Below are positions 12,054 to 31,052 of a DNA stretch of 39,135 bases, piece by piece. Each line of letters opens with the position of its first letter. The first letter of the stretch is position 1. The translations under genes and the position numbers were made by a program. The stretch comes from a virus. The notes under the pieces were generated by a model, which was not told the origin of the DNA, ran no database searches, and saw only the letters and a list, made by a program, of their open reading frames with translations. The stretch lies in the IMG/VR virus record IMGVR_UViG_3300050343_000057, positions 1-39,135 of that record; one strand, given 5' to 3'.

Positions 12054-14117
12054 ATGATACTTACCTTAGATGTAGAGAACACAGTAGTAAAAAGAAATGG
12101 CAAGCTACACCTTGATCCATTCGAGCCAGAGAATACACTGGTTATGGTGGGTATGCTAGATGATAACTTGGACACGAGGACATTGTAACATTCGATCATT
12201 CAGAGCAACACACCTACCACAGATGGACGGTAGCATTGTCCAAGAGAAACTGGACAAGACTCGTCTGCTAATTATGCACACAATGCACCACATGATCTGA
12301 TGTGGTTGTGGGAGTCAGGCTTTACCTACGAGGGTGATGATATTCGACACCATGCTAGGTGAGTACGTACTACAACGTGGACAGAAAGCAACCACTATCC
12401 CTTGAGGCTTGTGCAGAACGTTACGATGCTTGACACTACAGAAGCAAGACAGTCATTGAAGGAGTGGCTCAAGGCAGGTAAGTCAGTACGTGACATGGAT
12501 CACACTGAGTTATCTGACTACTTGTCTGCTGACCTACATGCTACACAGCAATTGTATGATCGTTTGCGGATACAGTACGAGGGATGCACTCACTAGAGCC
12601 AACGATCAAGCTGACTAATCAATTGGCTGTACACCTTGCACGTATATACCAACGTGGTTTGAAGGTTGACTATGGAATGCACTGGAACTCTGTGCGTAGA
12701 AGAGTTCGAACAGGAACGTAATCACACTAACACGTTCACTAGAAGAACAGTACGTGAGCTAATGGGTGACAGACCTATCAACCTCAATAGTCCAGAGCAA
12801 TTGTCTTGGGTTATCTATAGTCGTAAGCCACACGATAAGAAGGTATGGAAAGAATTGTTTGATGATCGTATGCCTGACGCAGAATACAAACGTCAATGTA
12901 ACATGCGTACAGTAGTAAGTTATTCAAACAGAAAGCTAGTCAATGCCGTACATGTAATGGCACTGGCAAAACAAAACAAAAGAAGGATGGTACACCATAT
13001 GCTAAACCAAATAGATGCGTTAGTTGTGACGCTACAGGATATATTTTACTGATATTGATAGTAGGGTGGCTGGGCTAAAGTTCACACCACCTACTGCTAA
13101 GTGGATTTCAGTAACAATGGTTTCGGTACAAGCAAGGACAATCTTGTATTCCTTGAAGGTATTGCTAGATCAACGAGGTATGAAAGACGCAGAGACATTC
13201 TTACGTAAGTACGTAGGTTGTCTGCAGTTGAGACATACCTCAGTAGCTTTGTTGAGGGTATTGCTAACTATGTAAAGCCTGATGGTAGCTGCATGTACGT
13301 TTACTTACAACATCGTACAGGTACAGGCAGATTGTCAGGTGCTGACCCTAACATGCAGAACATGCCACGTGGTGGTACATTCCCTGTCAAGAAAGTGTTT
13401 GTGTCACGTTGGGAAGGTGGAAGATAATGGAAGCTGACTTTGCACAGCTTGAATTTCGAGTTGCTGCATTCCTATCACAGGACATGACTGCCATTGACGA
13501 GGTGACTACAGGCTTTGATGTACACAGTTATACAGCTAAGGTTATCATCTGATGCAGGTCAACCTATGTCACGTCAAGATGCCAAGGCACACACATTTGC
13601 TCCTCTGTATGGTGCTAGTGGTTTGGTAGATCACCTGCAGAAGCTGCGTACTACAAACAGTTTACTACTAAGTATCAGGTATTGCTAAGTGGCATAAAGC
13701 ACTTGCCACGTGAAGCATTGAACACTGGCAAGATAACTACACCATCAGGGCGTGAGTTCTGCATTTCCTGATGTACACGTAGACAAATGGGGGTGTGACA
13801 TATTTCACACAGATTAAAAATTATCCTGTACAATCGTTTGCTACTGCTGACATCGTACCTATATCACTGATATACATTGATAAGATGTTAGGTGCTAACA
13901 ATTACACAGTTGTGTAGTCAACACAGTACACGATTCAATTGTAATTGACGTACACCCAGACGAAGAGGAAAAGTATTACGGATAATACAATGCTGCCAAC
14001 GACAAGCTTGATACCTATAGTAAATAAGAAGTGGTATTGACTTTCAACATACCTTTATTATTAGAGGCAAAAATTGGCCCTAATTGGCTTGACACAAAAG
14101 ACGTAGTCGTGATATAA
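12054..14117 (+). CDS. Family A DNA polymerase with DnaJ-type zinc finger, frameshifted
   Basis: The gene starts ATG 12054 and ends TAA 14115-14117, about 687 residues once many single-base breaks are ignored. The 3'-5' exonuclease shows Exo I LTLDVENT (about 12060), HDLMWLWESGF (12291-12323) and Exo III YLSADLHATQQLYD (about 12517). The polymerase domain shows motif A MEADFAQLEFRVA (13427), motif B KAHTFAPLYGAS (13584) and motif C TVHDSIVIDVHPDE (13924). Between the two domains is a DnaJ-like zinc finger (separate entry). This fused finger was described for Puniceispirillum phage HMO-2011 polymerase. At least ten frame breaks occur, far more than decay with all motifs kept would allow, so sequence error is the main explanation. 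Confidence 0.9.
12944..13036 (+). other. DnaJ-like zinc finger inside the polymerase
   Basis: Translated in its local frame the segment gives CRTCNGTG at 12944-12967, a 16-residue Lys/Pro linker, and CVSCDATG at 13016-13039. The pair CxxCxGxG and CxxCxxxG equals half of the DnaJ central domain and should bind one zinc ion. It lies after the exonuclease domain and before motif A. Its role in the polymerase is unknown; candidates are processivity, template binding or contact with a partner. Confidence 0.85.
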
Positions 14118-14153
14118 CTAAGATTCGTTTTAACAGAAAAGGAGATATCACAT

Positions 14154-15046
14154 ATGAACCAAGTAACAACAATCGACACAGGTAACTTCAACGCAATGGC
14201 TGAAGCAATGGGTATGAATGTTGACACCTCAACAGCAAGTCAGGCTAGTACACTTGCACGATTGCGTGTCATCACACACCTATCATGGGTCAGCAGGAGA
14301 CTATCAATGGTAAGAAAGAACGTTGAGGTTGTGTCTGGTGGCACATATAAGTTGGAGATACCAGATGGTCCTACGTACTACGCAGACAGCTACTATACGT
14401 CCATTCCTACAGCGCTTTATGTACAAGAAGTTTGTCAAGGGTAGTGACAGTACACCTAATCGTTATGTCAAAACTGTCATGGCTAATGATTTGAACAGTG
14501 ACATGAAGGACAATGATGGTGGCTTCAACTGTGGTAAACCTGCAGGTTACATTGAAGACTTGGGCATTACCTGAGAAGATGAAAGACTTGATCGTCAGAT
14601 CAAACGTGTACGTGTACTGTTTGGTACAGTAGAGTTACACAAATCCTACAGATGCAGACAGGTAAGTCAGTAGATGTTGTCACCACAGGCATTCATCTGG
14701 GAGATTGAAAATCGTGATGCGTTCAAAGGTGCAGGGTGATCTTCAACAAGCTAGGTAAGATGCGTAGGCTACCACCACAGCACAACGTTCAATGTACTAC
14801 TGAAGAGCAGTACCACTGCCTAACGGTAACAGTGTTCTACTGTACCTACATTTACAGACTTGACTTAGGTGATACACTTGACATGGACAATGACGGTGAG
14901 CAAGAAACCTTTGCTAATTTCATGGCATGGATTGAGAACTACAATGAGTACATCTGAATGCATGGAATGAGAAATGCACAAGAATGACGAGGTTGACACA
15001 GATACTGTGGGAGTTCGTAGACATTGACGCAGAGGACTTTGTGTAA
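14154..15046 (+). CDS. Putative single-stranded DNA-binding protein, frameshifted
   Basis: ATG 14154 follows AAAAGGAG (14137-14144) and the reading closes at TAA 15044-15046 after several one-base corrections, giving about 295 residues. The N-terminal half is mostly beta: VNVEVVSGGTYKLEIPDG, then YYADSATIRPFLQRFMYKKF. After FNCGKPAGYIED comes IRQIKRVRVLFGTVEL and PFIWEIENRDAFK. The C-terminus ends in the acidic tail DIDAEDFV, like the acidic aromatic tails of SSB proteins such as T7 gp2.5. Its position between the polymerase and the exonuclease fits. The SSB call rests on context, beta content and the tail, not on a sure family match. A GATTCGTTTTA motif lies upstream (14122). Confidence 0.5.
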
Positions 15047-15924
15047 TGAACCATCCTGCTGAACTGGCAATACATCAGTACCTTGAAGATGCTGCCAACG
15101 GTAAGTCTTCTATGTCAGATGAAACAATTGACACAGTTAGCAAGTGATGTAGCAGAGGCACTGAAACGCCAGTTCGGTAGTGGTAATAAACGTGACGAGT
15201 TCAGGTTAAGGATGTCCAACATTGGGCGTCCTACTTGTCAACTCTGGTTTGATAAGAACAAGCCAGAGAAAGCATTACCAAAGCCGACTACATTTCGTAA
15301 TGAACATGATGTTAGGAGATATAGTTGAAGCTGTTTTTAAGGGTGTTCTTAAAGAGCTAACGTTCCTTTTGAAGATGAAGATAACTTAGCCTTCCAGTGG
15401 GAGATAGTAATGATACTGTTGTTTCTGGGCAGTTATGATCTTATCGTATGGATGGTGCACTTGATGATGTAAAGTCAGCATCTGATTGGTCATATCAGAA
15501 ACAAGTTTGAGTCATATGATACGTTACTCAAAGGTGATTCATTTGGATATGTAGGGCAGTTAGCAGGTTATGCTAAAGCTTCTGGTAAAAAGGTAGGTGG
15601 TTGGTGGGTAGTCAACAAAGCCAACGGTAACATCAAGTATGTACCTGCTGACAGCATGGACTTTGACGCAGATGCTAGAGAAGCTAAGATAAAACATTGA
15701 CACAGTAAATGCCAATGAGTTCAAGCGATGCTTTCAATCCTGTACCGGAAACGTTTAGAGGTAAGCCATCAGGTAACTATGGTACTAAATCGACTAACTG
15801 TAAGTTCTGTGACTTTAGGTTTGAATGCTTTCCAGAACATTGAAGAGTTACCATCAAAGGTATCACAAGCTAGAGTTAAACCAACAGTAAGTTACGTACA
15901 TGTAAACGAAGGGCTAAACCATGA
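15046..15924 (+). CDS. Cas4/RecB-like PD-(D/E)XK exonuclease, frameshifted
   Basis: ATG 15046 overlaps the preceding TAA. The end is uncertain because of frame breaks; the most natural one is TGA at 15922-15924, overlapping the next ATG. About 290 residues. A first Cys lies in IGRPTCQLWF, and GDIVEAVFKGVL carries the motif Glu. DGALDDVKSASDW supplies the Asp and Lys of the nuclease core, and FGYVGQLAGYA matches the QxxxY motif. The last Cys set is CKFCDFRFEC. One early Cys plus three late ones is the iron-sulfur plan of Cas4 and AddB. It would resect DNA during phage recombination or host DNA breakdown. No CRISPR genes are near. Confidence 0.75.
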
Positions 15925-16361
15925 AGGCATCTCAATACGCTGCCGCAATGAAGCATGGGTATAGGAGTGGGTTAGAGTTCGGACTAAAGACTACCTAATT
16001 AGAACATAAGATGCAAGTTCAAATACGAGAAGGTAAAGATTGAGTGGGAAGACCTTATGTACCGCACCTATACCCCTGACTTTGTATTGGTAACGGTATT
16101 ATAATTGAGACAAAGGGGTTGTTTACTGCAGATGATCGCCGTAAACATTTAGCTGTTAAGGAGCAGCACCCTAAGTTAGACATACGATTTGTATTTACTA
16201 ACAGTCGTTCTAAAATTAAGTAAGGGTGCTAAAACTACCTATGGACAATGGTGTGAAAAAAATGGTATACAGTATCATGATCGCATCATTCCAGGAGTGG
16301 CTGACACGAGAAGGGCAAAGACATGCATCCTGCATTAATCCACTGCCCATACAAAAAGTAA
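15921..16361 (+). CDS. T7 endonuclease I-type Holliday junction resolvase, frameshifted
   Basis: ATG 15921 to TAA 16359-16361, about 147 residues as in T7 gp3 (149). After one-base corrections the core reads MYRTYTPDFVL, GIIIETKGLFTADDRRKHL, DIRFVFTNS and KTTYGQWCEKNGIQYHDR. These are the Asp, the Glu-x-Lys and the C-terminal signatures of endonuclease I. It cuts branched DNA and Holliday junctions before packaging, and in T7 it also degrades host DNA. It follows the Cas4-like exonuclease, a common pairing in T7-like replication modules. Confidence 0.85.
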
Positions 16362-16377
16362 AAAGGAGACAGCAGAA

Positions 16378-16727
16378 ATGAATGAAGAGAATGTATTAAT
16401 AGACTTTGAACCTAATGATTACATCATACGCTGTCTCCATTTTTAGATGAGAAGGTAACTGGACAGGGAGAGTTGATGGTAGGTACTGTAACTACAGAAG
16501 ATAATGTAATGAATGATGATGATCACTACAACTTACACACCTAACACAGCTTGTTGTGCCTCAGTACCTGCCCTATGGAAGAGAGCGCATGAAGTTGTGA
16601 AATCTACTAAGTGAGATTGTAGAGGAAGCTAAGAATAAGGTATCCTAACAAGTTACCAGAAGTAGAAAACTAAAAAGAAACCAGATATAACCAGGTAGAT
16701 AAAAACGTAATAAAGGTAAGTTTCTAA
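16378..16727 (+). CDS. Unknown protein, frameshifted, about 116 aa
   Basis: AAAAGGAG at 16360-16367 precedes ATG 16378. With a few one-base corrections the reading continues to TAA 16725-16727. Recognisable stretches are NEENVLIDFEPNDYI, FLDEEGNWTGE, MVGTVTTEDNVMNDDDHY and LTHLTQLVVASVPAL, followed by a basic tail. The acidic N-terminal half and the LxLTQLVxASVPAL helix suggest a small regulator-like protein. I recall similar hypothetical genes between endonuclease and ribonucleotide reductase in marine podoviruses, but no function is known. Confidence 0.5.
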
Positions 16728-16743
16728 TGTGGGAGACAATGAT

Positions 16744-16898
16744 ATGATAGTTAAAGTATTTCTAACTCTTGACATAGATGAAGAAGAGTATCCAATGCCT
16801 GTAGATGGAAAGATAACGATGAAGAGAAGACGCATGTAAAAGAGTTTATATTGATGTTGATGGGTGGAAATTAAATCAATAAAACAATATCGGAGTAG
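16744..16898 (+). CDS. Unknown small acidic protein, frameshifted, about 51 aa
   Basis: ATG 16744 opens MIVKVFLTLDIDEEEYPMPV. A frame change near 16815 then leads to a C-terminal part that includes Tyr/Ile-Asp-Val-Asp-Gly and a closing IKSIKTI before TAG 16896-16898. The shape strand, acidic helix, strand with DVDG is typical of very small phage proteins next to nrd genes. No function known. Confidence 0.45.
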
Positions 16899-16902
16899 TT
16901 AT

Positions 16903-18728
16903 ATGAATAACCATTTACCAACAGACTATCAAGCATTCATTCACAAGTCACGTTATGCCAAGTACTTGACGGAAGAAGGCCGAGAATCGTGGTGAAACAG
17001 TAGGACGATACATGACAATGTAGTGCAACCAGGCATTAGGTAGAAGAATAGCCTAACCAAAGAGATTGAGCAGGCTATACTAGGACTAGAATCATGCCTT
17101 CTATGCGAGCTATGATGACAGCTGGCCCAGCGCTAGATCGTGACAACACAGCAGGCTACAACTGTAGCTACCTACCCGTAGATGACCCTAAGTCCTTCGA
17201 TGAGGCTATGTACATTCTCCTCTGTGGTACTGGTGTCGGGTTCTCCGTTGAGCGCCAGTTCATCAGCAAGCTCCCAGAAGTACCTGAGTTGTTCGAGAGT
17301 GAGTCTGTCGTTGTCGTTAAGGACAGTAAGGAAGGCTGGGCTAAGGGGTTCCGTCAAGTTCTTGCACTCCTATGGGCTGGTGAGATACCTAAGTGGGATG
17401 TATCTCAGGTACGCCCTGCAGGTGCAAGGCTAAAGACGTTTGGTGGTAGAGCATCAGGCCCAGCGCCTCTTGTAGAACTATTTAACTTTGCTGTATCTAC
17501 CTTCAAGGCAGCACAAGGGCGTAAGCTTAGCTCTATGGAATGTCACGACTTGATGTGCTTCATTGGTCAGATCGTTGTCGTAGGTGGTGTACGCCGCTCA
17601 GCTATGATCTCTCTGTCTAACCTGAGTGATGACCGTATGCGTCACGCTAAGTCAGGACAGTGGTGGGAGACTGCTGGTCATCGTGCCTTGGCTAACAACT
17701 CTGTGTCATACACTGAGAAGCCAGACATGGAAACATTCATGCGTGAGTGGCTTGCTCTTGGTTGAGTCTAAGTCTGGTGAGCGTGGTATCTTCAATCGTG
17801 AAGCATCCAAGAAGCAAGCAGCTAAGTTTGGAAGGCGTGATCCTAACTATGAGTTCGGTACTAACCCTTGTTCAGCGAAATCATTTTACGCCCGTATCAA
17901 TTTTGCAACCTAACAGAGTGTGTAGTACGAGCTACTGATACATTACAGAAGACCTTGAGCGTAAGGTTAAGTACTGGCTACTATCTTAGGTACAATACAA
18001 TCTACTATGATTAAGTTCCCCTACCTTACGTAAGGTATGGCAGAACAATACAGCAGAAGAGCGATTGCTTGGTGTATCTATGACAGGTATTATGGACAAC
18101 CCATTTAATGACAAACTCTAACAAAGGATTGGAGAAGACCCTTGAGCACCTACGTTCTATCGCTGTTGCTACTAACGCTGAGTGGGCTGAACGCCTTGGC
18201 ATCCCTGCTAGTGCTTCTATCAGCTGCGTTAAACCTTCCGGTACGGTATCACAGCTGGTTGATTCTGCCTCTGGTATTCACGCTCGTCACAGCCCCTATT
18301 ATATTCGTACTGTCCGTGGCGACAACAAAGACCCTCTGACACAGTTCATGATTGACCAAGGTATTCCTAATGAGCCTTGCGTTATGAAGCCTGACTCTAC
18401 TGTAGTGTTTAGCTTCCCTGTGAAAGTCACCTGAGCAGGCAGTGACACGTAACGACATGACAGCAGTAGAGCAGCTAGAGTTGTGGCTTACCTATCAGCG
18501 ATCACTGGTGTGAACATAAGCCAAGTGTGACTATCTCAGTTCGTGATGCTGAGTGGATGGCTGTAGGTGCATTTGTGTATAAACTTTCGATGAGATGTCA
18601 GGTGTATCATTCTTGCCACACTCAGATCATACTTATCAGCAAGCACCTTATCAAGATGTAGAAGAGAAGAGTACCGCAAATATATGCTCCCGATGGCTCA
18701 TACATCGGGGGTTATGAATCACTACTAA
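16903..18728 (+). CDS. nrdJ: Class II (B12-dependent) ribonucleotide reductase, frameshifted
   Basis: ATG 16903 follows CGGAG (16891-16895); the end is TAA 18726-18728, about 608 residues. Clear segments are MPSMRAMMTAGPALDRDN and GYNCSYLPVDD with the first active-site Cys. LCGTGVGFSVERQF follows, then GIFNRE, NPCSE with CNLTE (thiyl-radical Cys region, 17870-17912), and CVKPSGTVSQLVDSASG. This order identifies a monomeric NrdJ, which reduces ribonucleoside triphosphates using adenosylcobalamin, so the host must have B12. About eight frame breaks interrupt it, but the block 17094-17765 is clean. Its codons are visibly more G+C-rich than the neighbours, which may reflect separate origin. Confidence 0.9.
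18689..18709 (+). other. Short perfect hairpin at the end of nrdJ
   Basis: CCCGATG (18689-18695) and CATCGGG (18703-18709) form a 7-bp GC-rich stem with a 7-base loop. No T-run follows, and it lies in the last codons of nrdJ. It could slow or attenuate transcription before the next gene, or be chance. Confidence 0.35.
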
Positions 18729-24862: not shown

Positions 24863-27293
24863 TTATCCTAAGATTGCACCTATACCCTTACCAAGTAAGG
24901 TATCGCCACCGATAGGTGATGTAAACATTGTAGCTACTAAACCACCCCATGCAGATGCAGAGTTATAGTCAGCTTGTAGTGCTGCAATATCTGCTTTAGC
25001 ATCTATCTGTAGTTTAATTGACGCTAGATCAACAATACGTTGTCTCTCATTCTCAGCACTGTTCCATGCCCACTCCATACTATCAGAGTAGTATGACCAC
25101 AAATCATTGTATGCAGTATTAGATATGTCAAGTACATTCTGTGCATTGATTTCATTAGCACGATTTATTGCTACAGTATCTGCAGTAGCAACTTGTCTAC
25201 GCCACTGTGCATTATTCTGATCAATGACTAATCTATTTTGTGCATTGAACTGATCACGTTGATTCATCATCTCTGCCGCAAATCTATTCTGTGCGTTCAT
25301 CTCACCTGCATTAAACTGGTTCTGTGCATTAGTTTGTGCAGTATTAAACTGTGATGTTTGTGTGGCTAAGTTAGCAAAGAACTGATCAGTTTGATTTTGA
25401 CTTGATGCATTAAACTGTGCCGCCGCATTAGTTGCCGCTTGATCTGTAAACAAAGACTGTACTTGTTGTTGTGATTTAAACAACTCAGTTTGTTGTATGT
25501 TACTCAAGTTAGTTAAGTCCATTTGCATAAATGCTTGTGCATTCATTACAGCCGCTTGTTGACGATTACTTAGGTTAGCCATATCTAAGTTAGACAATGC
25601 CGCCGCTTCTGCCATTACCATAGCTTGTCTATTAGATAGGTTAGCTATATTAACAGTGTTAGCATTACGACTATTCTCCAAAGCAACCTGTTGTTCAGCA
25701 GTGAAGTTCATGTTAGCTACATCACTAATCTTACTTGCATTCATAACACGTGATTGAAATGCTTGATCAAACTCTTGACCCATAAATGTTGCACGTTGCT
25801 GTGCCGCAAGCATAGCACGTTGTTGTCTGTTTGACAAGTTCTGTGTTTCAAAGGATGCTTGTGTCTGTGCATCAGCCATTGCGATAGGTAATGCTGACTC
25901 CATAGCGGCCTGTACAATGGCTTGACCTGCCATACTACTAGCACCTAAGCCACGTGCCGCCATAGTCGCTGTAGCAGTCCTCATAGCCCCTGCAGCCCAT
26001 GCTGGTGTAGCTCCACCCTCAAAGTTTGTCATTAGTGTGTCAAGTTGCCCTGCCACAGTAGCTTTCTGAGATGGTGATGCAGTAGCCGCTTGCACTTCTT
26101 CTGTAAACTTAGATGCAGTTTCAGCATTTGCTACACCACTTATAAGTTCACCATTTTCAATCTTACGCTGTACTGGGTTCTCCATTAATATGGATGTACC
26201 TTGTGCCGCATCTAACTCACTTACACTAGTTGCAGTTGCAGTCTTAGCATCTACAATAGCTTGTGGATTAACTGTACCTGTAGCCGCTTGTGTTTGTGCC
26301 AGTGCTTTTGCTACTTCATCTGCCGATGTAGCCGCAGTCATAGTAGCCGCATCAGTAGGTGTAACAGCATCAGCTTGTGCAACAGTAGCAGTAGTTACAG
26401 GAGTAGATATATCACCTGTTACTTGCCCACTACGAGGATCAATTATCTGATCACTAGTTATCTGCGTACCTACAGGTTGTACTGTAGCACCATAAGCTAG
26501 TGATGGATCAATGGCTCTATTAGCAATTAACTCAGATACAGATTGACCTTCGTATGCACCTGTCTGTGGTACACCACCTACTGAAGTACTTGTATTTTGA
26601 ATACTATTTGCGTTTATGTCTGGTTTAGTATCACTGGGGCCGGGACCTCTTGCAATAGCTTCAGCAATAGCCGCAGCTTCTTCGGGTGATTTAACATCAC
26701 GTTGCATTTGCCTGTTAACAGCCTGATCATATGTGTAGCTATATGTCTGTGGGCTTGTATTGGTTGTACCAACAATATTACCTTGCGCATCCATAAGACC
26801 TGTACGTGGATCAAGCGTTCCTGATTGTGTAGCTAGATAAGCTTCATATGCTTTATCCTGTGCCTTACCAATACTACCAGAACCCATCTGACCAAAGTAA
26901 GGGCTATAGTACATATCTTGAGTACCTACAGTATTACTATTTTTAAAGTCTGTATACTCTGGTGAATTAAAAAAGTCTTGGTTTATCTCTGGTAACCGGG
27001 GGTGGTATTAATGTACCATCAGTTTTTGAAGATTCATTTGCAAACATGTTAGGTGTAAGATTCATTTGAGAACCAGTAGCTGATGTAGTTACACCACCAA
27101 CAGCATAGCTAGGTTTCTTTACTATACCACCCTTAGCCATTTCCATAGCTTTGTTTTGATACATATTCATCTTACTCATTTTATCAGGGTTCTGATTTAA
27201 GTAATCATTAAAGCCACTCATATCACCTTGATAACCTAAGTTACCTGCAATGCGTTGCATAGCCTGTGGTTTAAATCCTTTGAACTGCATCAT
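24863..27293 (-). CDS. Q/N/A-rich repetitive virion protein, about 810 aa, one frameshift
   Basis: Two open pieces join into one gene: ATG 27293 (MMQFKGFKPQAMQRIAGNLG) and the part ending 24863. Removing one G from the run 26998-27002 makes the frame continuous and supplies LPEINQDFFNSPEYTDFKN before the second piece. The N-terminus carries a YxGDMSxFNxYLxxNPDK unit and an AKGG-type segment. The middle is Ala/Thr-rich. The C-terminal half repeats NLSNRQQ or close forms about every 30 residues, between helices rich in Gln, Asn and Ala. Such Q/N/A-rich helical proteins are typical of the internal or ejected proteins of marine podoviruses. A near-perfect promoter lies just upstream. Confidence 0.7.
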
Positions 27294-27362: not shown

Positions 27363-27863
27363 TTAATCTGCTAGTGGATTATCTAGTGCACGTTGTAATT
27401 TAGTTACTAGTCTATCTTCTAACTCTTTCATTGCTGAAGACTGTGACACTCTTACACGTTCTCGTTGATTCTCAAACCTTATTTCAGCATCATCTATCAT
27501 AGTACGTACCTTGTCTTCATTGTCACGTACCATATCCTCAATACGATCTGTCTGTTGTTCTATTCTTAACAGATCATCTTTCAGACCATTCTTAATATCT
27601 CTAGTGTACTCTACACTCTCTTCAACCTTCTCAGATATACCAGACACTTTAGCATCCATGATATCCATCTGTTGTTGATATGCACCTAAGTCTAACCCTG
27701 CAACTTCTTCTATCTTTTGGTATAGAGTGAAGCCACCATACAAACCACCAACTACTGTAGACAAGAAAGCTATTATAGCTAGTACTGAACTTGCTGTTAG
27801 TTTTACACCACCAGCTTTTACTTCTTTGTCAGCTAGGCTTTCAACGTTTGTTAAATCTACCAT
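27363..27863 (-). CDS. Membrane-anchored coiled-coil protein, 166 aa
   Basis: ATG 27863 overlaps the upstream TAA. The N-terminal 25 residues are charged. One membrane helix follows (about residues 25-48, AIIAFLSTVVGGLYGGFTLY), then about 115 residues of charged helix with coiled-coil character. Acidic and basic residues alternate in DLLRIEQQTDRIEDMVRDNE, and the end is LQRALDNPLAD. Topology should be inner-membrane anchored. It is the last gene of the exported cassette. A holin, spanin-like or tethering role are options; no lysis motif proves any. Confidence 0.65.
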   Translation of the reverse strand: MVDLTNVESLADKEVKAGGVKLTASSVLAIIAFLSTVVGGLYGGFTLYQKIEEVAGLDLGAYQQQMDIMDAKVSGISEKVEESVEYTRDIKNGLKDDLLRIEQQTDRIEDMVRDNEDKVRTMIDDAEIRFENQRERVRVSQSSAMKELEDRLVTKLQRALDNPLAD

Positions 27864-28279
27864 TAGTTCTCAAAGTCCATACCACCTGTCTGTTGCAGGT
27901 TCTTCAATGCTTCTAGCTCATTACGTAGTTGTTGTATCTCTAATCTACGTTGAGCTAACTCTACCTGATACAAGTCGTCACAATTAATACGAGACTTAGG
28001 TTTATCAAGAGGTATAACAACACGGGCATATAACCCTACATCCTTACTTTGGTGTCCAAAACTTGATGGATTAAATGTACCACCTACATTGTTGACTACA
28101 CCTGTAACACCAAACTCTAAGTTTACACCACCACCTACAGCATTACTACAGTCTAAGTTACCTGCCCTAAATCTATCTGACTGATAGTTCATTGGTGGGT
28201 TAGGTAGTGTTAGAGCTAGGTTGTTACTCTCAGCTACTACTGAACTAGCTACGACACATAATGCCAATGCTAATCTCAT
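27863..28279 (-). CDS. Exported protein with C-terminal coiled coil, 138 aa
   Basis: ATG 28279 overlaps the upstream TGA. Residues 1-16 (MRLALALCVVASSVVA) form a Sec signal peptide with a likely cut before ESNN. The mature part has LPNPPMNYQSDRFRAGNLDC, a Gly/Val/Asn-rich strand region with EFGVTGVVNNVGG, then LYARVVIPLD. A helix, LAQRRLEIQQLRNELEALK, likely a coiled coil, follows. Two Cys (in NLDCSN and RINCDD) could form a disulfide in the periplasm. No lipobox is present. I recall similar unnamed proteins from marine phages but know no function. Confidence 0.65.
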   Translation of the reverse strand: MRLALALCVVASSVVAESNNLALTLPNPPMNYQSDRFRAGNLDCSNAVGGGVNLEFGVTGVVNNVGGTFNPSSFGHQSKDVGLYARVVIPLDKPKSRINCDDLYQVELAQRRLEIQQLRNELEALKNLQQTGGMDFEN

Positions 28280-28662
28280 GCTGGCTCACCATCAATACGT
28301 GAGCATATCCTAGAGACAACCAAAGTTCTTGAGTCTGTCTTTTTTCTTACCTTTGATGTAGTACAAATATATGTAGCTTCATCTAAATCTAACTCACGTA
28401 TATACACAATAAAATCTTTACGTTCTTTATAACCTACTTTAATGATCCTATACTTAGATGAGAATGGTAGGTTTGTAAAGTTTAAATCAAACAAATCTAT
28501 CTGATAATACTCTACATCTTCCCGTGAGTTAAACAAAGACATCTCTGCTTTAACTACACCTGCAACATACGTAGGTTTTAACATTGGGTAGGCTGGTGTC
28601 ATTTCATGTGCAGAAACAACAGTAGCCCAACCCATAAACGCTATGATTAGTTTATTTAGCAA
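28276..28662 (-). CDS. Exported beta-rich protein, possible pilus-chaperone-like, 128 aa
   Basis: The start is taken as TTG 28662, overlapping the end of the SCPU-like gene; it gives a signal peptide MLNKLIIAFMGWATVVSA before HEMTPAYP. The longer frame upstream lies inside that gene. The mature part is beta-rich, with VVKAEMSLFNSREDVEYYQI, FTNLPFSS, FIVYIREL and YICTTSKVRKK, and ends SRICSRI. The strand pattern and the two late Cys recall small immunoglobulin-like periplasmic chaperones. This is fold-level inference with low certainty. Its coupling to a pilin-like subunit makes the idea attractive. Confidence 0.55.
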   Translation of the reverse strand: MLNKLIIAFMGWATVVSAHEMTPAYPMLKPTYVAGVVKAEMSLFNSREDVEYYQIDLFDLNFTNLPFSSKYRIIKVGYKERKDFIVYIRELDLDEATYICTTSKVRKKTDSRTLVVSRICSRIDGEPA

Positions 28663-29140
28663 TACAAGTAGCCTGTACAACTGCAGTGTATGTACCTCCC
28701 GGCAAAGGTTTAGCTGAACCGTAGACTGCACTTGATGCAGTAGAGAACCATGTTGAACCTGCAAGAGTTAGGTTAAAGATAGTGGTACTATCCACTACAA
28801 CTTTTGCATCATTATAAGCTGACATTCCTGACACAGAAGTTTTAGTTACACTTGTACTTCCTGTCCATGCAAGTGTATCTGTAAGGTTAGGTGAAGAGCT
28901 AAAGGATGTAGGGTGAGTTATGTTTGCAGTATATGAGTCTGCAATAGATACATCAAACCTAATTACAGGTAGTACACCACCATCTGAAGGTGTTGTGCTT
29001 AACTTACTGGCAATAGGGTTGCCGTATACACCAGCTTTATCTGCTTGAATAACACACTTGGCGGCTACGCTTCCTGTAATATCTACAGTAGCAAATGCTG
29101 GTAATGCACAAAGTGATAGTAGTGCTGTTAAATATTTCAT
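28652..29140 (-). CDS. Exported pilin-like (spore coat U-like) protein, 162 aa
   Basis: The start is ATG 29140, with GAGGAA just upstream; an in-frame ATG at 29152 would add four codons before that site. A signal peptide MKYLTALLSLCALPAFA is followed by TVDITGSVAAKCVIQADKAG. The rest is Ser/Thr/Val-rich beta sequence with DGGVLPVIRFDVSIADSY and a late GGTYTAVVQATCIAK. One early and one final Cys, short length and all-beta content resemble SCPU/fimbrial subunits. The protein is probably secreted to the periplasm or surface. It is the centre of the exported cassette. Confidence 0.6.
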   Translation of the reverse strand: MKYLTALLSLCALPAFATVDITGSVAAKCVIQADKAGVYGNPIASKLSTTPSDGGVLPVIRFDVSIADSYTANITHPTSFSSSPNLTDTLAWTGSTSVTKTSVSGMSAYNDAKVVVDSTTIFNLTLAGSTWFSTASSAVYGSAKPLPGGTYTAVVQATCIAK

Positions 29141-29148
29141 TGTATTCC

Positions 29149-30018
29149 TCATTTGTTATACTGCATGTCTACCATTTTTTCATGTAGTACTTGTTGGGCT
29201 AAATTGTTTCGTAAAGCTTTCTTGTTGTCGGGTATAGTTCCATCTTTTAATCCAGCCGCATCGTTTAGTGTACCGCCGTTTATCTTTGCATTGTAATACA
29301 TATTGATATTAGTTTGTTTGTTTAAGGCTAATATTATATCGCTTTGATTTTGTGCCTTGAATAGTGTAAGAGCATTAGCAGAGGCAGTTAATCCCATCTC
29401 TATGCGTGTCTCCTCTTCTTCCTCTTCTTCATCTAGTATAAGTTTACCATCTTCGTCATACTGAAACTCTTCAGCTTCTAGTGTATCTACAACTGCATCA
29501 TCTTCTAGTGCATCATAGACTATAACCTCTGGTAATACTGGCATAGGCTTTACATAACCTGCACAAGATGGGTCAGACTGTGGATCATAGCATTTGTCTA
29601 ACCTGTAGTTGTATATTACAACAGCATCTTTAACAGTTCCTTCACCCTCAACTTCAACAAACCCAGTACCCCATTTAGATGCTGGTATATTTGAAAGAGG
29701 GAAAGACTTAACAATAGTATTTCCGGGTACGCCAGACCAATCATCAGTCTCTCTAAATGTATAACCATCTCCACTTGCGTTGTGATTGCCTACATGTACC
29801 TTCATATCTGCTTCTGGGTCTTTTACTGTAGTGTACCTATAGAGTAATCCATTTATATCTACACCACCGATACTAGGTAAGATAGAATCCATAGACCAAC
29901 CTAATGCACCTGATGCCGCATTACCTGTAGCTCCATACGTATATGGTTCAGAGTAGGAGTAAGAAGGCAAGAGTACTAAAGATAACACCCAAGCCAATCT
30001 TAGTTTCACTGTTCTCAT
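29149..30018 (-). CDS. Exported protein of unknown function, 289 aa
   Basis: ATG 30018 opens MRTVKLRLAWVLSLVLLPSY, a signal peptide with a likely cut after SYS. The start lies 71 bases inside the end of the upstream gene, in another frame. The mature protein has a first half of mixed strands (GALGWSMDSILPSIGGVDIN, GDGYTFRETDDW). A CYDPQSDPSCAGY pair follows, which probably forms a disulfide, then a very acidic region with a run of nine Glu. The C-terminus is a helical part (ALTLFKAQNQSDIILAL). The acidic block could bind calcium or a cationic surface. No family is recognised. Confidence 0.65.
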   Translation of the reverse strand: MRTVKLRLAWVLSLVLLPSYSYSEPYTYGATGNAASGALGWSMDSILPSIGGVDINGLLYRYTTVKDPEADMKVHVGNHNASGDGYTFRETDDWSGVPGNTIVKSFPLSNIPASKWGTGFVEVEGEGTVKDAVVIYNYRLDKCYDPQSDPSCAGYVKPMPVLPEVIVYDALEDDAVVDTLEAEEFQYDEDGKLILDEEEEEEETRIEMGLTASANALTLFKAQNQSDIILALNKQTNINMYYNAKINGGTLNDAAGLKDGTIPDNKKALRNNLAQQVLHEKMVDMQYNK

Positions 30019-30502
30019 CAAACATCTTTCTGATTACATCGTTTTGATCTCGTTCGATCTCATCTTTAACTGCTTCCATATCCCATGCTAGTCTAGCTTG
30101 ATCACCAACTAATCCATCTTTAGGGCATGGTGTACCTGCATTCATCATAGCATCAAACACTCTTTCGTCTTGACACATTACTGATACTGCGGCTACCTTC
30201 ATGCCCATGTCATACATAGTCTTAGCATTCTTGAGCTTCTCACAGTTCATGTCACGTACTGTACGACCTGCTGAGATACCTAGTATCTGTGTCTGTACTG
30301 CCCCTGCTACACCTACAGTACATAAGTCAGAGTTACTTGCACTTATCTGTGGAGATATAGCCGATGGTGGTGGGCTATTGATTGTAGTATCCATAGAACC
30401 ATTTGAAGTTATAGTACTATTAGTGTCAGTCTTTATAACATCATCATCGGCATGTGCAATACTACCGATTAGTAGGGTAAATAGTATAAGTAAGAGTTTC
30501 AT
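29948..30502 (-). CDS. Exported protein with C-terminal membrane segment, 184 aa
   Basis: ATG 30502 overlaps the stop of the 88-aa gene. A signal peptide MKLLLILFTLLIGSIAHA is followed by DDDVIK, then a Ser/Thr/Asn/Pro-rich linker. The folded part has four Cys (DLCTVG, DMNCEK, VMCQDE, TPCPKDG) and helices such as KTMYDMGMKVAAVS. The last 16 residues, IGLGVIFSTLAFLLLL, are a hydrophobic tail. Cleaved signal plus C-terminal anchor would leave the body in the periplasm. Its 3' end is also the signal-peptide region of the next gene in another frame. Confidence 0.65.
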   Translation of the reverse strand: MKLLLILFTLLIGSIAHADDDVIKTDTNSTITSNGSMDTTINSPPPSAISPQISASNSDLCTVGVAGAVQTQILGISAGRTVRDMNCEKLKNAKTMYDMGMKVAAVSVMCQDERVFDAMMNAGTPCPKDGLVGDQARLAWDMEAVKDEIERDQNDVIRKMFDENSETKIGLGVIFSTLAFLLLL

Positions 30503-30765
30503 TTATTATCTTGTTCTGCCATTCTCTCTACTAGGTTACGAATAGCTTTAATGTTTTCATCAATACGTCCTAGAGAGACAGCTTGCATTTGTACTGTCTT
30601 CTCTAGTGTATTTATACGAGTTTCTTGGCGAACTAAATCACGAGCATTATTTTTGACGGAAGAGTCTAATGAAGACACATACCATACAAGTGATATAGTT
30701 TGTAGTACGATAGCTACGATTAACGTAACTGGTACTGACTTAGAAAGATGCCAACTCTCAGTCAT
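30499..30765 (-). CDS. Small membrane-anchored coiled-coil protein, 88 aa
   Basis: ATG 30765 overlaps the TGA of the tail chaperone gene. Residues about 11-31 (VPVTLIVAIVLQTISLVWYV) form one membrane helix, and the rest is a charged coiled coil (ARDLVRQETRINTLEKTVQM, IKAIRNLVERM). The plan is the same as the 166-aa protein at the other end of the cassette, so the two may be partners. A short protein like this could also be a holin or Rz-type lysis accessory. The sequence does not decide. Confidence 0.65.
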   Translation of the reverse strand: MTESWHLSKSVPVTLIVAIVLQTISLVWYVSSLDSSVKNNARDLVRQETRINTLEKTVQMQAVSLGRIDENIKAIRNLVERMAEQDNK

Positions 30766-31052
30766 GGTTTAGTAGGCCATGTTATATTATCTGGATAGCC
30801 ATCTAAGTCTTCTATATCTAACAGAGCTTGACGATAATTAGTCCACTCCGTTCGTTTATCTTCTGACATTTCGTTCCAACGTAAAGCATTAGATACAATA
30901 GGGTCTACATCTGATAAGAGTAAGTCATCACGTACTTTTCTTGCGTATTCTGGAGCTTTAGCCTCTTGTGCCGCCCGTTCTGCCGCTAGTTGGATTTCTT
31001 CTTCTTCAGTAAGCTGTATTGTTATTCCGTCTACTATTTTGTGATTTGACAT
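30762..31052 (-). CDS. Phage tail assembly chaperone-like protein, 96 aa
   Basis: ATG 31052 stands behind AAAAAGG, after the second fibre gene. The N-terminal half is acidic and helical (EEEEIQLAAERAAQEAK). The C-terminal half has the pattern of the small tail assembly chaperone proteins that follow fibres: RDDLLLSDVDPIVSNALRW, then EWTNYRQALLDI and a WP ending (NITWPTKP). Such proteins help fibre folding or trimerisation. A second member, 33211-33634, follows the first fibre gene and shares DPIVxNxLRW and TWPTKP. Confidence 0.75.
   Translation of the reverse strand: MSNHKIVDGITIQLTEEEEIQLAAERAAQEAKAPEYARKVRDDLLLSDVDPIVSNALRWNEMSEDKRTEWTNYRQALLDIEDLDGYPDNITWPTKP

Follow-up and report, generated by a model that had tools for sequence, protein, structure and literature searches.

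Why would a tailed phage, whose particles assemble in the cytoplasm, devote a run of late genes to exported and membrane-anchored proteins? The question is raised by the virus record IMGVR_UViG_3300050343_000057 from IMG/VR, a stretch of 39,135 bases (hereafter the window, meaning this whole stretch). Short late-gene stretches tie it to Puniceispirillum phage HMO-2011 and to roseophage CRP-9, and it is a fragment of an HMO-2011-type phage (HMO-type below). Seven genes on its minus strand, p1 to p7 (27363-30765), had been singled out in a preliminary description as a co-translated cassette of exported and membrane-anchored proteins. We find that this cassette is real and conserved, that it contains a predicted one-domain chaperone beside a weakly pilin-like protein, and that outside HMO-type phages it is lysis genes rather than tail genes that accompany it most constantly. 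We tentatively favour, while giving it somewhat short of an even chance, the explanation that it is a late, co-translated envelope set working alongside holin and endolysin as the cell is being opened, perhaps a device for breaching the outer membrane. The seven genes and their flanks are as follows.

p1, 30499..30765, minus strand: 88 aa; N-terminal transmembrane (TM) segment and coiled-coil-like region (by eye); predicted inner-membrane protein
p2, 29948..30502, minus strand: 184 aa; signal peptide, conserved four-Cys domain, C-terminal hydrophobic tail
p3, 29149..30018, minus strand: 289 aa; signal peptide, Cys-DPxxxPxC-GY element, acidic stretch, conserved C-terminal segment
p4, 28652..29152, minus strand: 166 aa; exported; predicted Ig-like fold
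p5, 28276..28662, minus strand: 128 aa; TTG start; exported; predicted single PapD-N-domain-like fold
p6, 27863..28279, minus strand: 138 aa; exported; beta-rich stretches followed by a coiled-coil-like C-terminus (by eye); possible outer-membrane or anchoring subunit
p7, 27363..27863, minus strand: 166 aa; N-terminal TM segment, long coiled-coil-like region (by eye), terminal conserved LQRALDNPLA motif; predicted inner-membrane protein with a periplasmic part
p0, flank outside the cassette, 30762..31052, minus strand: tail fibre assembly chaperone (PF16778, E 9.7e-9; phrog_4628, E 3.1e-12)
p8 and p9, flank outside the cassette, 24863..27293, minus strand: HMO-2011-type late genes

All seven open reading frames (ORFs) are present between p0 and p8/p9, and from p1 to p7 successive genes overlap by 4, 71, 4, 11, 4 and 1 nt, the first 71 nt of p3 lying over the 3' end of p2. 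The TTG start of p5 falls within the 3' end of p4, at 28662; the equivalent position holds TTG in 52 of 67 relatives, and in 3 more it comes one codon later. (The mechanical ORF list gave p5 as 162 aa, and that longer version was used in the PHROG and Pfam searches.)

To follow the cassette in other phages, we collected relatives of p4 (241), p3 (47) and p2 (548) from the viral_contigs set, retaining at most the best 80 of each; p5 had 487 relatives. The resulting 195 sequences, window included, were reduced to 100 nonredundant entries by dropping 95. A second copy of the window (L001) is out of the downstream and lipoprotein counts given below and in those based on 75 and 52 entries. The complete p2-p7 set occurs in 52 of the 100 entries, corresponding to 51 distinct uncultured marine contigs (the window being one of them), both in HMO-type contigs and in contigs with other flanks. 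A claim that the full set also occurs in myoviruses was dropped; the largest contigs hold p2-p3-p7 without p4-p6.

The overlaps are conserved along with the order. Across the redundant set, the 71-nt overlap of p2 and p3 was identical in 153 of 153 measured entries, and the same overlap as in the window was found for p3/p4 in 126/127, p4/p5 in 112/114, p5/p6 in 135/148, p6/p7 in 67/70 and p1/p2 in 31/32. Median ratios of nonsynonymous to synonymous substitution (dN/dS) against the window were 0.08 for p2, 0.13 for p3, 0.11 for p4, 0.16 for p5, 0.14 for p6 and 0.09 for p7 (28-64 pairs per gene; the maximum for a single pair ranged by gene from 0.23 to 0.66, with dS reaching about 3), which points to purifying selection on p2-p7. 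Because order and overlaps are conserved and all six medians are this low, we do not regard the cassette as a chance arrangement. One 80-kb HMO-type contig, IMGVR_UViG_3300046167_000032, has two copies of p2 (G003:139-690, 54706-55254) and may be a concatenated or chimeric assembly.

Matches beyond these contigs were few. In the 50,697 phage records of INPHARED, p4 and p5 had no match at E up to 1, p7 had one (Pelagibacter phage HTVC115P, 7e-9) and p6 had just 24, all weak and all in Vibrio phages (E about 0.06-0.1). Among bacterial genomes, p4 was found only in three small contigs of metagenome-assembled genomes, probably binned phage DNA.

Export and membrane features were assigned by a hydropathy heuristic, and the coiled coils of p1, p6 and p7 were judged by eye. 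A hydrophobic stretch within residues 1-25 is present in 74/76 relatives of p2, 68/75 of p3, 68/68 of p4, 67/67 of p5 and 65/65 of p6. A stricter signal rule, adding a net positive start and a cleavage-like site, picks out 46/76, 67/75, 64/68, 53/67 and 65/65, respectively, counts affected by the approximate starts of many p2 and some p5 relatives. Eight neighbouring window proteins, used as controls, all fell under the hydrophobicity threshold. The hydrophobic C-terminal tail of p2 is found in 71/76 relatives and the N-terminal TM segment of p7 in 67/68. Export-type N-termini are thus kept among relatives despite differing sequences, and what the preliminary description said of export, anchoring and gene coupling holds up on this heuristic and these overlaps. 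A lipobox-like Cys after the signal stretch was seen in single relatives of p3 (L127:6666-8237), p2 (L126:2392-2961) and p6 (L166:6285-6704); by eye, p2, p3 and p6 of the window have none.

Family searches say little about function. The best PHROG match of p1 is to a family of unknown function (1.5e-6), followed by weak holin (8e-5) and Rz-like spanin (2e-3) matches, and its Pfam match to DUF7365 (1.7e-5) lies under the Pfam cut-off. Both p2 (phrog_20531, 1.4e-13) and p6 (phrog_37374, 5.7e-7) match families of unknown function. PHROG and Pfam gave no match for p3, and the search of PDB sequences no credible one. In other phages the place of p1 is often filled by a family of similar layout (F9, 74-80 aa): directly upstream of p2, the nonredundant loci have F9 in 26 cases and p1 in 11.

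The predicted folds of p5 and p4 are more informative. The AlphaFold2 model of p5 (predicted local distance difference test, pLDDT, 86.2) is a single domain. In Foldseek, 11 of the first 15 rows are chaperones of chaperone-usher systems (Caf1M 6e-4 and FimC 1e-3, at probability 1.00, and SfaE 2e-3), row one being a Cu superoxide dismutase (5.5e-4). The VIA comparison aligned FimC (4dwh) over 100 residues (Z 9.7, root-mean-square deviation (rmsd) 3.7) and placed the N-domains of FimC, Caf1M, SafB, DraB, YadV, PapD and CsuC at Z 8.3-9.7, covering residues ~17-124 of p5; the non-chaperones among its rows include CsxA (Z 10.1, rmsd 2.4, 93 aligned) and MSP domains (8.3-8.9). We therefore predict with good confidence that p5 consists of one PapD-like domain similar to the N-domain of FimC or Caf1M, so that its preliminary description as a small, possibly Ig-like chaperone is well supported. 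In 127-aa numbering, C99 is invariant and C119 nearly so, and the pair sits in two modelled strands (97-104 and 113-121), those in which FGL chaperones carry a disulfide.

For p4, the best of the five AlphaFold2 models built from 37 sequences reached a mean pLDDT of 85.5 (others 81.2 to 55.9), with low values in residues 1-30. Residues 22-31, just ahead of Cys33, were modelled at low confidence with no strand, and may be a candidate donor strand. The top Foldseek row is the PapG pilin domain (E 3e-3, probability 0.99), and the 50 rows include FimD-tip, CfaB, CsuA/B, Caf1 and FimG among AP2 mu and staphylococcal adhesin rows; none reached E 1e-3 or better, and the viral structure library likewise gave nothing at that level. 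VIA scores were at most Z 7.8, headed by other folds, many of them Ig-like; chaperone-usher pilins are absent from its 50 rows, which include MSCRAMM, integrin and carbohydrate-binding folds. Because the VIA rows list no pilin, the pilin reading of p4 leans on the Foldseek ranking and on the adjacent p5, and we describe p4 as weakly most like chaperone-usher pilins. Side by side, p4 and p5 point to the two partners of one known complex, which we infer to be a stronger indication than either match alone.

At the sequence level there is nothing comparable: profiles of p4, p5, p3 and p2 found nothing convincing among PDB chain sequences, and Pfam searches with 37 p4 and 38 p5 members returned weak unrelated matches only. 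Membership of p4 in the SCPU family (PF05229) was rejected, as none of the 37 members matched it at E up to 1. The "pilin/SCPU-like" subunit of the preliminary description thus survives in its pilin half, with weak fold support, and not as a match to PF05229, other Pfam families or PDB sequences.

How is such a pair built into the cassette? Of the nonredundant entries, 75 contain p3 as well as p7; p4-p5-p6 are all present in 64 of these, all absent in 9 and partly present in 2. The partial entries (L145 and L115) look like ORF-calling failures, and tblastn recovers p4 in L145. On this comparison p4-p5-p6 appear to be gained or lost as one block set within a p2-p3-p7 core. The preliminary picture of two membrane-anchored proteins simply bracketing the set does not fit, as the core also occurs without the three inner genes. 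Entries without p4-p6 are contigs of ~9 to 244 kb in which complete p3 proteins are 512-941 aa long with a C-terminal HEKMVDMQ, and p7 retains LQRALDNPLA. Among distant relatives the C-terminus of p3 is thus kept, and its N-terminal part varies in kind and length (289 to 941 aa). Pfam gave no credible domain for the long p3 relatives; they may resemble nidogen-like or jelly-roll domains, a likeness given no weight here. By eye, long relatives (L124:5280-8105, L128:5841-8105) carry many Cys-rich repeats (C, LYD, C, GY, AY), of which p3 of the window has one.

The insert between p3 and p7 differs in entries without p4-p6. In one (L120:8247-8984) a class 3 lipase (PF01764, 1.6e-21) and a TM protein replace p4-p6, and a cell wall hydrolase (PF07486, 1.4e-20) lies beside p2. 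Others have unrelated genes or a small protein, F152, as insert. F152 follows p3 in two distant units (L128:8105-8431, L124:8105-8434), is beta-rich by eye and perhaps an outer-membrane protein; a Pfam search with the L128 copy gave no match.

The core has counterparts in cultured phages. We found p2 in 11 phage records, including Pelagibacter phages HTVC033P, HTVC202P, HTVC115P, HTVC023P, Baldr and Mosig, and roseophages CRP-207 and CRP-810. The units of HTVC033P, HTVC202P, HTVC115P and CRP-810 share with the cassette a homologous p2 and the order p2, large exported protein, small membrane protein, with p7 itself matched in HTVC115P and CRP-810 (1e-5). They differ in lacking p4-p6 and in having a p3-like protein matched by position and layout only. 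In the three HTVC phages the large protein has no p3 profile match at E 0.05 or better, and the small TM protein of HTVC033P and HTVC202P has no p7 profile match, so their equivalence to p3 and p7 is one of position. Just before p2, CRP-810 encodes a small predicted lipoprotein (L007:5558-5818) that weakly matches the p2 profile (E 4e-6), suggesting that the p2 domain may be able to work at the outer membrane. These p2 units are already in public records, either unannotated or under names that our searches did not bear out: in CRP-810, p2 is annotated as OmpA family and p7 as lysozyme (a Pfam search showed no lysozyme domain), and the p3-like gene of ctXG6705 is annotated as tonB.

What surrounds the cassette depends on the phage type. 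Within six genes before p2, the 52 full entries have fibre-like genes in 28, the tail-fibre-chaperone family in 16, the F14 virion structural family in 7, head genes in 5, portal in 5 and a J-like fibre in 3. Past p7 usually come F7, a gene for a holin-like protein and an endolysin gene, in that order. F7 has an EF-hand-like start (under the Pfam cut-off) and two TM segments by eye. Searching Pfam with one member of each family identified F12 as GTA holin (PF11351, 1e-23), F13 as PF05838 (3e-30) and F10 as PF00182 (6e-7); F11 has no Pfam name and is called holin-like by its place, which corresponds to that of HMO-2011 gp58.

We counted these genes in the 66 nonredundant loci, window included, in which four or more genes follow p7. 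An endolysin lies no more than six genes from p7 in 45; 42 have a holin-like protein together with an endolysin, and 43 have F7. The remaining classes are the HMO-type loci with p9 (11) and loci without F7, holin-like protein, endolysin or p9 (10). The location "inside the virion operon" given in the preliminary description is therefore true of the window, and in other phage types the cassette stands beside lysis genes. In two HMO-type records (54.9 and 48.3 kb), one of which has a p4 identical to that of the window, the trio F7-F11-F13 (79-83% identical) directly precedes the terminase, and the cassette is found in another place; cassette and lysis trio are split modules in the window's phage type.

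Retrieval in the opposite direction, starting from the lysis genes, gave 24/48, 22/32 and 38/80 nonredundant loci for three sets of matches, of which 22, 17 and 26 had sufficient upstream sequence. Among the best 80 matches of F7, the cassette was present in 22/22 loci of relatives at least 80% identical and in 4/17 of those below 70%. Among the best 80 of endolysin F13, p7 was found within 5 kb upstream in 13/26 and any cassette gene in 15/26. The 11 F13 loci without the cassette have F7 and F11, and 9 of these 11 carry an HMO-2011-like terminase. We read this retrieval as tight linkage among near relatives that is not fully independent of the counts above, because the queries came from cassette loci, the lists were limited to the best 80 and contigs recurred.

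If the cassette acts during lysis, how might it work? In the scheme we favour, p7, with p1, would sit in the inner membrane and extend into the periplasm, and p2 would be exported and retained through its hydrophobic tail. The acidic p3 would form an exported stalk whose conserved C-terminus docks on a p2/p7 base, its N-terminal part pointing toward the outer membrane or the surface. The one-domain chaperone p5 would hold the pilin-like p4 folded in the periplasm; donor-strand pairing could then link p4 to p3, to p6 or to other copies of p4, and p6 would be the outer anchor. Once the endolysin has removed the wall, this scaffold would breach or loosen the outer membrane, a job done in other phages by spanins. 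We infer the protein contacts, the timing and the membrane-breaching action in this scheme; gene neighbourhood is what draws us to the lysis stage among the three functions first offered for the cassette, and it makes the other two, a surface fibre or barrier and altered attachment, less favoured. A bolder version, which we consider unlikely, is that the cassette is an undescribed lysis machine, an usher-less pilin and one-domain chaperone on a p2-p3-p7 base spanning the periplasm, that builds up beneath or across the outer membrane to breach it, serves as a pilus-derived spanin substitute and has spread by exchange among unrelated phage types.

The likeness to spanins (Rz/Rz1 and unimolecular) is partial. 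Their inner-membrane component may have a counterpart in p7 and p1, which have N-terminal TM segments and coiled-coil-like parts (by eye) that would lie in the periplasm. In many relatives the cassette, like spanins, adjoins the holin and endolysin, and it comes with exported partners. It differs in having seven genes that are not nested, pilin-like and chaperone-like proteins and, in the window, no lipobox lipoprotein partner. No credible outer-spanin lipoprotein was found near the cassette and endolysin in 45 loci: a lipobox rule, which detects the CRP-810 lipoprotein as a positive check, gave four candidates, namely a p6 member and a single frame found three times, which in two instances lies antisense to a called gene. 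This is weak support for a spanin-like role, because HMO-2011 also shows no such lipoprotein and some p2, p3 and p6 relatives pass the lipobox rule.

Several points weigh against a role in lysis. HMO-2011 has the lysozyme gp56 and the holin-like gp58 and lacks the cassette, and the surroundings of its lysozyme show, by eye, no outer-spanin candidate. Lysis there runs without the cassette, which is thus not needed for it, and we rejected the view of the cassette as an obligatory lysis factor. The window itself has no lysis gene near the cassette, and the 10 distant loci mentioned above lack the holin-endolysin linkage (3 of them hold a gene of the cell-wall-hydrolase family, by profile match for L120 only). 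In 15 of 19 picked records, mainly cassette-free loci and most of them fragments, p2 was not found. The linkage could also come from shared late transcription or from exchange among phages of the same host, and we know of no lysis mechanism that needs a pilin-chaperone pair.

The chief alternative places the cassette at the cell surface, as a fibre or a mask of the receptor. It would then be a late surface system in which a pilin-like fibre, or a complex tipped by p3 with its N-terminal part as binding head, masks the receptor, excludes other phages or makes cells stick, as has been proposed for phage-encoded curli. The resemblance of p4 (weakly) and p5 to a fimbrial subunit and its chaperone speaks for it, as does a p3 with a constant C-terminus and a variable N-terminal part. 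There is a precedent as well in the curli fibre cassettes of marine phages, which are reported to move between phage families (PMC9599517, PMC7029224). We nevertheless think it doubtful, if still worth weighing seriously. No usher was found in the phage records searched, several of them fragments (PF00577 in 0/17, PF13954 in 0/14; the E. coli control was detected), and no curli CsgG pore (PF03783) in 10 records (control detected), leaving no visible route to the outside in these records. Most non-HMO loci have lysis genes as neighbours, and p2-p3-p7 exists without p4-p6 in other phages.

The two known fibre systems mark how far this resemblance goes. With chaperone-usher pili (type 1, P, Caf1, Csu) the cassette shares, by predicted fold, a PapD-N-domain-like p5 next to p4, whose likeness to pilins is weak. 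It differs in having no detected usher, a chaperone of one domain instead of two and no sequence-level match, and in being phage-borne and often linked to lysis genes. The pelagiphage curli (type VIII secretion) cassettes are likewise multigene exported sets found across different marine phage types; here the protein families are others, no CsgG was found and lysis genes are often adjacent.

A further possibility, in our view very unlikely, is interference with the host envelope, p4 and p5 acting as decoys, one for a pilin and one for its chaperone, that block pilus assembly or some other system of the host. That p5 retains only a subunit-binding-like domain, and that the pair comes without a detected usher, would suit a decoy; its nearly constant company of p6 and its place inside the p2-p3-p7 core count against one, because a simple inhibitor would not need them. 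Equally improbable, and rejected as the main explanation, is that these are ordinary tail or fibre proteins whose N-termini happen to be hydrophobic: the genes do sit in the tail run of the window, from the tail fibre chaperone to p8/p9, but HMO-2011 and CRP-9, its kin in the tail region, show no match to p2, p4, p5 or p7, the cassette is common to phages with differing structural genes, its export-type N-termini are conserved though the sequences differ, and none of p1-p7 has a convincing structural match in PHROG or Pfam (a minor tail protein row for p7 reached only E 0.37).

Some observations concern genes near the cassette or elsewhere in the window. Several HMO-type relatives carry, between p7 and p9, an HlyC-type lysine acyltransferase (PF02794, 1e-20 for one member; L112:10698-11111, L139:11197-11610) with 13 family members in the redundant loci; it is absent from the window, and HTVC115P gp46 is annotated as an enzyme of this type too. 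After p9, 3 of the 11 HMO-type records have a protein with a phage lysozyme domain (PF00959; L112:13209-13982, L139:13718-14464), at the place of which the window has a 71-aa gene. The early genes of the window (12402-18434) are apparently split into several frames, by eye as if by sequencing errors; one family has 223 aa in the window and as many as 654 aa in relatives. The cassette is intact.

We found no description of this system in the open-licence full-text literature (subscription papers and preprints being outside that scope), in keeping with the first impression that it might be undescribed. What is new is the pair of p4 and p5, weakly pilin-like and chaperone-like by predicted fold, the behaviour of p4-p5-p6 as an insert and the linkage to lysis genes. 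About 13% of Gram-negative tailed phages are reported to have no recognisable spanin, and what they use as a substitute is described as an open question (PMC12819732, citing Kongari 2018). The cassette is a concrete, widely conserved candidate for such a spanin substitute in marine phages, and its seven genes make the question testable. Should it make a surface fibre instead, it would join curli as a second kind of fibre with which marine phages may equip infected cells. On either reading, an usher-less pair of pilin and chaperone would stand out as unusual among the systems we know.

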